This document shows positions 21,187 to 44,850 of a DNA stretch of 64,000 nucleotides, one piece after another (positions within the stretch are counted from its first letter, which is position 1; every line of letters starts with the position of its first letter). The notes under the pieces are model-generated. The model made no database searches, was not told where the DNA came from, and saw nothing but the letters and a program-made list of their open reading frames with translations. The DNA is from Paracoccaceae bacterium (GTDB lineage: Bacteria; Pseudomonadota; Alphaproteobacteria; Rhodobacterales; Rhodobacteraceae), in assembly GCA_029244725.1 (NCBI GenBank), contig JAQWQJ010000089.1, positions 62,001-126,000 of the forward strand, read 5' to 3'. Made by a program: the position numbers and the translations under genes.

Positions 21187-21251
21187 AGTACAAACCTTTT
21201 CCTAGATTGGGCGCTACCTATCTATGTCGAAGCCCATGTAAAGGAAAGTCG

Positions 21252-21695
21252 ATGTCTGACAGTGATCTATTAAAACTGTATTCAAGCAGAATTCTGGCGT
21301 TGGCTGCTGAAATGCCGAAAACGGACCGACTTGATGCTCCTATGGCGACTGTTAAGAAGCGCGCTCCGTTGTGTGGTTCAACCGTAACTGTAGATCTGTC
21401 TATTAAAGATGGAATTATCACTGCATACGGGCAGGATGTTAAAGCCTGTGCCCTTGGTCAGGCTGCCGCATCTGTGGTTGGAAGCGCAATTGTTGGCTGC
21501 AGCACAGATCAGGTTATTTCAGCCCGTGACGGTTTGAAGGCAATGTTGAAGGCGAATGCAGCTCCTCCTCAGGCTCCGTTTGATGGCTTGGAAGTTTTAA
21601 TTCCCGCGCGGGAATTTAAAAATAGGCACGATTCAATCATGCTTTCGCTGAACGCCAGTGTTGAAGCGATCAAAGAAATTCAAACCCAGACATAA
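21252..21695 (+). CDS. Iron-sulfur cluster assembly scaffold-like protein (NifU_N/IscU family)
   Basis: The 147-residue protein has the NifU_N fold with two of the three usual cluster cysteines, C41 (APLCGST) and C66 (VKACALGQ). The third position, normally RHDC, reads NRHDS, so the last ligand is Ser. It may be a variant scaffold or a carrier. The start at ATG 21252 is chosen because AAGGAAAG lies just upstream. It is divergent from hisI and no other suf/isc gene is in the window. Confidence 0.82.
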   Translation: MSDSDLLKLYSSRILALAAEMPKTDRLDAPMATVKKRAPLCGSTVTVDLSIKDGIITAYGQDVKACALGQAAASVVGSAIVGCSTDQVISARDGLKAMLKANAAPPQAPFDGLEVLIPAREFKNRHDSIMLSLNASVEAIKEIQTQT

Positions 21696-21730
21696 AAAAA
21701 CGCCGCTGACTTCGAAATGAAGCAGCGGCG
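21694..21730 (-). terminator. Strong leftward terminator
   Basis: CGCCGCTG/CAGCGGCG with an inner CTTC/GAAG stem is followed on the minus strand by seven T residues. It is oriented for leftward transcripts, that is for the small gene at 21876-21995. On the plus strand the hairpin lies just after the scaffold-protein stop but has no T run. Confidence 0.8.
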
Positions 21731-21875
21731 CGAAAGTATGCAATCCAGTCGAGGAAGACGATTTGACGTTAGGCTGTGAGGCATCCTAACGCCTGGGGAC
21801 ATGTGGCTCTCAAAACTAAGGGACAGGCGTTCATCAGAGCATCGTCAATATTGGGGATCGCAGGCAGTAAAACCT

Positions 21876-21995
21876 TTAGAATGCGCTGGGCAGCGTCAAT
21901 CCAACAAACAACATGGCTATCAACGCAGCGACACCAACCATATCTTCAACCAACGTCATTGATGAGCGGCGGAGAGCGGATCTAATTTGTGTCAT
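21876..21995 (-). CDS. 39-aa membrane protein behind a LexA-type box
   Basis: The peptide starts MTQIRSALRRSSMTLVEDM with a basic N-terminus and ends in one hydrophobic segment (about residues 20-38) rich in V, A, L. The ATG at 21995 is fixed by GAGGTGA spaced six bases upstream. Its leader holds GAAC-N7-GAAC (22056-22070), the alphaproteobacterial LexA box, and it has its own terminator at 21694-21730. No family was recognised. LexA-controlled short membrane peptides that block cell division are known in Caulobacter (SidA); a similar role is a hypothesis only. A longer frame to 22082 is unlikely because it would start in the operator region. Confidence 0.75.
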   Translation of the reverse strand: MTQIRSALRRSSMTLVEDMVGVAALIAMLFVGLTLPSAF

Positions 21996-22009
21996 TTTGT
22001 TCACCTCAT

Positions 22010-22080
22010 GTTCTCTTGTTGCTATTTTGTTCTCATATATGAGGATCGTTAGCAAGAACTTTATGAGAACATTTGAGAAC
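22010..22080 (-). promoter_or_regulatory. LexA-type SOS box and GTTCTC repeat cluster
   Basis: GAAC-TTTATGA-GAAC at 22056-22070 exactly fits the alphaproteobacterial LexA consensus GTTC-N7-GTTC read on the other strand. Three more GTTCTC/GAGAAC copies lie at 22010, 22029 and 22075, and a perfect CTCATATATGAG palindrome at 22032-22043. The site is 61-75 bp upstream of the small gene's ATG, where a promoter is expected. The exact box could occur by chance about once or twice in this window, so position is the main support. Confidence 0.6.
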
Positions 22081-22087
22081 AAAATTG

Positions 22088-26301
<4,214 letters not shown>

Positions 26302-43803: not shown

Positions 43804-44850
43804 ATGGGACTATTCATTCTCCGTAGGTTGGGAGTGATGATACTGACGGCTTTATGCCTGACGTTCGTCGTTTTCTTCCTAACGAACCTTTATCCCAATC
43901 TAGAAAAGCTCGCAAAAACTCAAGGTAACTTCCGGATGTCCGATGAACAGGTTGAAACCTGGCTCGGCAATCGTGGGTATCTTGAACCGACATTAGTGAA
44001 ATACGGCGAATGGCTTGGCGTTGTACCAGGATACGACATCGTCGGAGCCGATGGTGAACGACGCGGACGCTGCTACAATTCAACAATGAATCCAGACGAT
44101 GCGGCAACTTTCTGTGGCGTTTTGCAAGGTGATTGGGGAGATTCGACTGTCTTCAAGGAGCCAGCTTCAAAAATCATCGCAACGCGGCTTGGTCTTACAG
44201 GTAAGTTGATGATGTGGGTTTTAATCGTGATGGTCCCATCTGCCCTGATCGTTGGCGTTATGGCCGGGATGCGCGAGGGGTCGAAACTAGATAGATCGTT
44301 GTCTACGTTTTCGATCGCGACGACGGCGACACCGGAATACGTATCTGGCGTTATCTTCATTGCGATATTTGCATCATCCGCCGTTGGTTTAAAATGGTTT
44401 AAAGGCTCTGCGACGTCCGCAATGGAAACCGCAACGCTTCAGAATTTTACCTTACCCGTCCTGACAATCGCCCTCTACGGCATGGGATACATTGCCCGAA
44501 TGACACGCGCCTCGATGGCCGAAGTCATGACAGCGCAGTATATCCGAACAGCGCGACTAAAAGGCGTCAGCTTCAAAAATATCGTTGTTAAACACGCACT
44601 CAGAAACGCTCTGATTGCTCCGTTTACGGTGATTATGTTGCAGGTGCCTTGGCTGTTAAACGGGGTCGTGATCGTCGAGACGTTGTTTAACTACAAAGGT
44701 TTCGGTTGGGTTCTTGTCCAAGCCGCAGGCAACAACGACGTTGAATTGTTGTTGGGCGTATCTGTTGTTTCGGTCGTAGTGGTTTTGTTGACGCAGCTGA
44801 TCTCAGACATCGGTTACGTTTACCTAAACCCACGCATCAAAGTAAGCTAA
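43804..44850 (+). CDS. ABC transporter permease, DppB type
   Basis: The 348-residue membrane protein is the first inner-membrane subunit of the importer, with RRLGVMILTALCLTFVVFFL at the N-terminus and YIRTARLKGVSFKNIVVKHA, the coupling motif of DppB/OppB permeases. A large periplasmic segment (about residues 35-125) follows the first span. A 12-bp gap separates it from the next permease. Confidence 0.92.
   Translation: MGLFILRRLGVMILTALCLTFVVFFLTNLYPNLEKLAKTQGNFRMSDEQVETWLGNRGYLEPTLVKYGEWLGVVPGYDIVGADGERRGRCYNSTMNPDDAATFCGVLQGDWGDSTVFKEPASKIIATRLGLTGKLMMWVLIVMVPSALIVGVMAGMREGSKLDRSLSTFSIATTATPEYVSGVIFIAIFASSAVGLKWFKGSATSAMETATLQNFTLPVLTIALYGMGYIARMTRASMAEVMTAQYIRTARLKGVSFKNIVVKHALRNALIAPFTVIMLQVPWLLNGVVIVETLFNYKGFGWVLVQAAGNNDVELLLGVSVVSVVVVLLTQLISDIGYVYLNPRIKVS

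Follow-up and report, generated by a model that had tools for sequence, protein, structure and literature searches.

It has been reported that SidA of Caulobacter crescentus, a LexA-controlled single-pass inner-membrane peptide of 29 residues, binds FtsW, and that DidA of Caulobacter, which has 71 residues and is induced by DriD without LexA, binds FtsN (PMC4211646). In Bacillus subtilis, the SOS-induced single-helix protein YneA is described as binding TM7 of FtsW through its helix, and its LysM domain as required for inhibition (PMC13396833), while TisB of Escherichia coli is a further small LexA-controlled membrane peptide (PMC8145889). Transcripts that join a small protein with an RNA have been described in Rhodobacter sphaeroides: UdsC is an RpoHII-dependent sRNA from the 3′-UTR of RSP_7527, a small-protein mRNA (PMC9779115, PMC8625941), with a published 5′ end at 1,289,874 of chromosome 1 (PMC6238624), and Pos19 is an RpoE-dependent small coding RNA of oxidative stress (PMC5036791).

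The window considered here is the whole stretch of 64,000 nucleotides that was analysed, and the unit in it probably encodes a membrane peptide of the SOS response, to which a conserved 3′ RNA is added. The host family, the Rhodobacteraceae, is large and ecologically important, and neither the peptide gene nor a coupling of DNA damage to division through it was found described in the open-licence literature; the accessible text of a study of LexA sites in D. shibae makes no mention of recG.

The peptide gene and its setting

The gene and its surroundings comprise the following features.

21876 to 21995, minus strand: 39-codon gene of a single-helix membrane peptide (profile search, codon-position entropy, predicted helix)
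22001 to 22007, minus strand: ribosome-binding site GAGGTGA (sequence)
22088 to 24178, minus strand: recG, upstream neighbour on the same strand (tblastn)
21207 to 21695, plus strand: NifU-like gene, converging downstream neighbour (tblastn)

The frame, read from 21995 to 21876 on the minus strand as MTQIRSALRRSSMTLVEDMVGVAALIAMLFVGLTLPSAF, and its GAGGTGA site are present where an earlier sequence-only reading of the window had placed them. When the window's peptide was used as the tblastn query, 214 of 295 family genomes were matched at E ≤ 0.1, and a 30-row peptide profile matched 251 of 295 Rhodobacteraceae genomes (E ≤ 1e-3) at one place each, including 223 of the 260 genomes of good quality. 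In 289 genomes drawn from across the class, strong matches were confined to the window's genome and three others, all of them Rhodobacteraceae, and 21 further matches were weak (best E 0.001), most of them inside long frames. The entropy at the three codon positions is 1.12, 0.67 and 1.60 bits (n = 90 homologues), the pattern of a frame under selection at the protein level. A chance frame or a chance box is ruled out by conservation across the homologues; by comparative sequence evidence the frame is a real gene, found in most of the sampled genera of the family. To this extent the earlier reading is supported: a conserved membrane-peptide gene adjoins recG and has a conserved LexA-type box beside it, which is the conservation that this reading had asked for.

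That reading had recognised no family for the peptide, and the searches agree with it: three family members had no match in Pfam, the PDB gave none, and the one NCBIfam match was far below its cut-off. In PHROG, three families were each matched by one of the 30 members (E 0.009–0.041). Family members are 39–40 residues long, with a D and a G invariant in all 90 homologues, followed by L (89), P (88), T (87), L (86), L (85) and R (80), and these residues are spaced at steps of three to four. The conservation moment at 100 degrees has a permutation p of 0.0007 (90 homologues), and AlphaFold2 predicts one helix over residues 2–38 with a mean pLDDT of 84.9, so that in the model the conserved residues share one face of a single predicted helix. 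With this one predicted helix and a hydrophobic core, the product has the form of the short single-pass membrane peptides among SidA-type inhibitors, and its basic N-terminus ahead of the hydrophobic stretch suggests an N-in topology. Because one helix face is conserved, a specific membrane partner is favoured over a pore, and action through binding such a partner is the reading to which the analysis moderately leans.

The name recG for the upstream neighbour is the one that the earlier reading gave and that we presume from its sequence, and the downstream gene is one which we take to be NifU-like. Matches to recG by tblastn occur at 88 of the 90 homologue loci and at 77 of the 78 loci obtained from the listed promoter-pattern matches (see below); those to the NifU-like gene occur at 67 of 90 and 63 of 78, some flanks being short. 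The setting also includes hisI, and no membrane-complex gene is a neighbour. This bears on the idea that the peptide belongs to a membrane complex as a minor subunit or helps to assemble one (cf. CydX of cytochrome bd), and that its regulation has nothing to do with damage. The conserved helix face and the near-core occurrence among the genomes of the family would fit such a role, but with these neighbours, none of them from a membrane complex, and with a LexA-type promoter that is hard to account for, this explanation is given little probability.

The gene has one copy per matched genome and is fixed beside recG. Plasmid and phage collections gave no match to the unit and viral contigs gave 0 matches to its full promoter pattern; a mobile origin is ruled out by the lack of plasmid and phage matches. 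Vertical inheritance within the Rhodobacteraceae, with the unit fixed beside recG, is the best explanation.

TisB is a type I toxin that depolarises the membrane, and to our knowledge neither helix-face conservation nor a fixed 3′ RNA is known for it. If the peptide were a toxin of this kind, it would need no protein partner to depolarise the membrane, and the role of the RNA would be confined to controlling translation of the peptide. A small hydrophobic peptide with a LexA-type promoter and a structured RNA is in keeping with this, TisB being LexA-controlled (PMC8145889), but polar and Gly/Pro positions are conserved on one face of the helix, and the patchy, mobile or multi-copy distribution that is typical of type I toxin–antitoxin systems, without strictly defining them, is not what is seen for a gene with one copy at a fixed place and no plasmid or phage match. 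A toxin is therefore held to be improbable, and a peptide acting on a specific partner is preferred.

The promoter and its LexA-type boxes

Upstream of the gene, the following elements can be distinguished.

22056 to 22070, minus strand: LexA-type box 1, GTTC-N7-GTTC, reading GTTCTCATAAAGTTC (sequence, conserved in homologues)
22067 to 22080, minus strand: outer GTTC-N6-GTTC, which adds a third half-site 10 bp ahead of box 1 (sequence)
22029 to 22055, minus strand: probable core promoter between the boxes (consensus of 89 promoters)
22018 to 22032, minus strand: box 2, GAAC-N7-CAAC, in the orientation opposite to box 1 (sequence; missed by the earlier reading)
21999 to 22013, minus strand: box 3, GAAC-N7-GAAC, over the ribosome site (sequence; also missed)

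Box 1, 61–75 bp before the ATG, is the exact box from which SOS control had first been proposed; the CTCATATATGAG palindrome and the further GTTCTC copies pointed out with it are in the sequence too. A single box is weak evidence: the window holds 5 copies of GTTC-N7-GTTC where 2.45 are expected, 10 of 100 shuffles also having at least 5, and the window's whole genome (G000) has 122 of them against 205 for the reversed control pattern, a rarity that possibly reflects avoidance of stray operator sites. It is from conservation that box 1 is taken as genuine: an exact box lies within 150 bp upstream at 89 of the 90 homologue loci, and a single box was counted in the remaining 181,615 bp of these loci. 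Of 89 aligned promoters, 78 have the outer GTTC. As for the second box, GAAC-N7-nAAC begins 38 bp past box 1 in 81 of the 89 promoters and is present at 88 of 90 loci, as well as at 77 of the 78 loci from the listed pattern matches; exact GAAC-N7-GAAC in this place occurs at 8 of 90 loci only. Box 3 is shared with G295 (locus L300), the sole other genome of the window's genus searched. In that second genome box 2 has decayed, box 3 being present in both, which looks like operator turnover.

Between the boxes, the family consensus of the putative core promoter is TTTACA-N13-ATGAGAAC; the window has TTGCTA at 22050–22055 and ATGAGAAC at 22029–22036. A sigma-70 scan found no consensus promoter at the unit, and these two blocks would be the −35 and −10 elements. 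The wider promoter consensus runs TTTGTTC-n-CaaATGTTCT-n-AaAAAGTTCTTTACa, then ...aTGAGAACAAAg-n-ggCAACA; GTTCTTTAC is exact in 77 of 90 promoters, the window carrying GTTCTTGCT, and the spacer (yAAAAA) and TTTAC are nearly as fixed as the GTTC letters. When the promoter alone was searched as GTTC-N6-GTTC-N7-GTTCTTTAC, with one genome per species, at least 117 stretches were found, and among the 80 listed the peptide follows just downstream in 78, the other two being from Bacteroidota; among these 80 the triple GTTC pattern marks no other Rhodobacteraceae gene. An exact LexA-type box was also seen at every one of the 17 lexA loci examined and at 12 of the 13 recA loci from the family, and recA bears a degenerate GTTC-N7-GATC box as well, which points the other way. 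Since two opposed boxes flank the likely core promoter and boxes of the same kind occur at lexA and recA, the architecture is, as a sequence pattern, LexA-like.

The presence of lexA itself was called by profile (E ≤ 1e-25) in the 295 family genomes. It was not found in 16 of them, and 10 of these 16 retain the peptide. In genomes of good quality, the peptide occurs in 220 of 253 with lexA against 3 of 7 without (Fisher p 0.009), an association that favours a link with LexA but may reflect only genome reduction. The genomes without a lexA match gave 10 peptide loci, two of which (L302 and L308) were unparsed, and in the eight parsed promoters the boxes are intact in every case, which counts against LexA, though most of the assemblies concerned are incomplete.

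One genome, G150, deserves separate description, its assembly having three contigs and a completeness of 100. No LexA orthologue was found in it by profile, nor by tblastn over 2.39 of the 2.58 Mb of its main contig, with a query that recovers 11 of 11 control loci at 64–82% identity. The only stretch that this search brought up is S24-like (LexA C-terminal-like), with 24% identity to LexA at L347 17643–18059, has GTTC-N7-GTTC nearby, and is perhaps a phage repressor. The recA promoter of G150 has lost both boxes, reading GCTTGATATCTC and GAACAAAAAGGGAATTC where relatives carry them. Its peptide promoter retains GTTCTTACTAAGTTCTTTACAC...GTGAGAACAATGGGGCAAC, with box 1, TTTAC, GAAC and box 2, lacking only the outermost GTTC. 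In 1.2 Mb of G150, GTTC-N7-GTTC is somewhat commoner than its reversed control, with 44 copies to 24, and the full promoter motif occurs at the peptide locus only, both in that 1.2-Mb stretch and in 2.39 Mb. From these sequences G150 (with L313 3160–3260) would be a natural LexA-less case, and it offers a natural experiment on whether LexA truly regulates the unit.

The same unit might therefore have a main regulator other than LexA, with GTTC direct repeats at steps of 10–11 bp serving a dimeric regulator (e.g., an OmpR-type response regulator), or with the motif being partly core promoter. The element intact in G150 despite an undetected lexA and eroded recA boxes speaks for this, as do a yAAAAA spacer and TTTAC fixed beyond the needs of a LexA operator, and a triple GTTC pattern that is found, among the 80 listed loci, at no other Rhodobacteraceae gene. 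On the other hand, the spacing within each of the two flanking boxes is exactly that of a LexA box and recurs at lexA and recA in the same genomes, loss of the peptide tracks loss of lexA in good genomes (p 0.009), the loss of LexA in G150 could be recent for the peptide promoter, and no candidate regulator emerged from the analysis. Such a regulator is possible, with the balance against it. Repression by LexA is somewhat favoured on the promoter sequences, and is held no higher because G150 keeps the peptide promoter without a detected lexA.

The structured RNA at the 3′ end

Past the stop codon, the following features were recorded.

21740 to 21867, minus strand: structured 3′ RNA (fold of the region, family covariation)
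21859 to 21867, minus strand: RNA loop motif CTGCCTGCG
21820 to 21826, minus strand: RNA loop motif CTGTCCC
21795 to 21801, minus strand: RNA loop motif TGTCCCC
21778 to 21783, minus strand: RNA loop motif TGCCTC
21694 to 21731, minus strand: intrinsic terminator, hairpin and T7 run, transcript end (sequence, predicted fold)

The poly-T terminator of the earlier reading exists and is oriented for the gene, but it lies at 21694–21731, outside the interval to which that reading assigned it; the hairpin is in the predicted fold, though a simple terminator scan did not list it. What had been overlooked is a structured 3′ RNA of about 180 nt from the stop codon to the terminator, and the transcript is therefore more than a peptide gene. 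The fold of 21694–21875 in the window has a z of −5.41, with 0 of 200 shuffles equally stable. In relatives, the common layout is a 5′ CUGCCUGCG, an outer stem, hairpins and a GC-rich terminator, and the hairpin loops are in most cases CUGUCCC(C)AA, CUGCCUGUC and UGCCUC.

By rule, the terminator was found at 79 of 90 loci and the frame at 76 of the 80 listed pattern loci; RNAs of 140–205 nt with duplicates removed gave 126 sequences (70 + 56 from two sets). The minimum-energy shape [[][][]][] was obtained for 67 of the 126 against 62 of 1260 shuffles, and the mean fold z is −4.7 (126 sequences), or −2.8 without the terminator (108 sequences). When flanks were swapped between species, the cost for three true hairpins was 5.4, 2.1 and 6.9 kcal/mol, against −0.4 to 1.3 kcal/mol in six mismatched controls. 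As to loop motifs, the 126 sequences contain the 5′ CTGCC[TC]G in 91, CTGTCCC in 89, a second CTGCCTG-type motif in 79, TGCCT[CG] in 79 and a GGxTCCC-type motif in 38.

RNAalifold on a plain MAFFT alignment gave almost no structure, and the model R1 had no base pairs; the covariance model was given a structure string from base-pair probabilities, on which it leans because the string was needed, and the shape and flank-swap tests are independent of that string. Built from 23 sequences, the model was run on 71 other loci and matched 59 at E ≤ 1, of which 47 at E < 0.01; every match is on the correct strand, and 56 of the 59 lie no more than 60 nt from the stop codon. In an alignment of 61 RNA matches (two in the window), which is biased towards the model, the share of cells that pair is 79.1%, compared with 58.7% for shuffles and 34–50% for slid controls, and double-sided changes occur in 36 of 38 pairs. 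In 80 whole genomes, 65 of them with the peptide, strict filters left 22 RNA matches, one per genome and each just 3′ of the peptide. The window's own copy has a model E of 0.42 against 0.15 for an unrelated place, and 7.46 genome-wide, and is not separable from chance by this model; the window's genus, L300 included, has a variant of the structure with two hairpins.

Rfam gave no match over the unit at gathering thresholds, with five sub-threshold matches of chance level around it. Judged from the compared sequences, the 3′ RNA is a conserved structured RNA family, and the unit adds it as one that has no gathering-score Rfam match. Elsewhere in the window, at 44431–44605 on the minus strand, RF02647 (Ruegeria cis52 sRNA) was matched at 87.5 bits, above its Rfam gathering score. 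Pairing of the 5′ leader with the 3′ RNA within the transcript was rejected, with no native preference and the sign opposite (+1.96), a result which also counts against the type I toxin. Another reading would make the RNA the product that functions and the frame incidental. The 3′ RNA is indeed conserved and structured, but the codon-position pattern, the invariant residues and the ribosome site, the presence of the peptide in 251 of 295 genomes, and G150, which keeps the peptide frame with only a short 3′ region, make this highly improbable; a transcript in which peptide and RNA both matter is the reading retained.

Identity with UdsC, the strongest prior description, is ruled out by position. 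In G051, position 1,289,874 falls on a different small frame, and a terminator follows after about 300 nt, in agreement with the published description of UdsC; the peptide gene is at 1,264,765 of the same contig, 25 kb away. G051 is taken, in part from this coordinate match, to be R. sphaeroides strain 2.4.1, which presumably has the peptide gene too. The short frame and terminator at the RSP_7527/UdsC position are found at L299 608–779 and 849–873 (G051:C4 about 1,289,874–1,290,172), and the protein there has what we take to be a DUF1127-like appearance.

Proposed mechanism and comparison with known systems

In the mechanism proposed, the promoter between two LexA-type boxes would normally be held off by LexA and released by DNA damage, and a short transcript would then yield a peptide of 39–40 residues that inserts N-in as one helix. 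Through its conserved R-T-D-G-L-L-L-P face, the peptide would bind a specific inner-membrane partner, of which the likeliest would be the septal cell-wall synthase (FtsW/FtsI/FtsN), making it a division brake like SidA and YneA. The 3′ end of the transcript would adopt a multibranched fold with exposed C-rich loops, acting in trans as a 3′UTR sRNA or sponge; from the repetition of these loops, they may pair with G-rich sites or titrate an RNA-binding protein. Leaving the division target aside, a LexA-controlled unit in which peptide and 3′ RNA are both functional is put at an even balance, and a trans role of the RNA is judged equally balanced for and against. Division as the target of the peptide is placed first by analogy and is tentative. 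Unlikely as a whole is the fullest version, a dual-function damage transcript in which a membrane peptide specific for its partner and a multibranched sRNA of a new class, with repeated YUGYCY loops binding a protein or G-rich mRNA sites, would brake division and gene expression together, the promoter element possibly being that of a damage regulator which outlived LexA. Since the unit is found in most sampled genera and presumably in R. sphaeroides 2.4.1, these proposals are directly testable.

Among known systems, UdsC resembles the unit in being a small-protein mRNA with an RNA at its 3′ end in the same bacterial family, and Pos19, compared by description only, in being a short transcript with a small frame and an RNA role. 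DidA is likewise a damage-induced single-helix division inhibitor, larger and LexA-independent, and is relevant because it shows a LexA-free damage route. YneA carries a LysM domain, and the peptide here is without such a domain. SidA, set beside the unit by description only, shares with it the form of a very short alphaproteobacterial peptide, predicted single-pass in the present case, with LexA control, which is likely for the present unit; unlike SidA with its 29 residues, the present peptide has 39–40 residues and its transcript carries a structured 3′ RNA.
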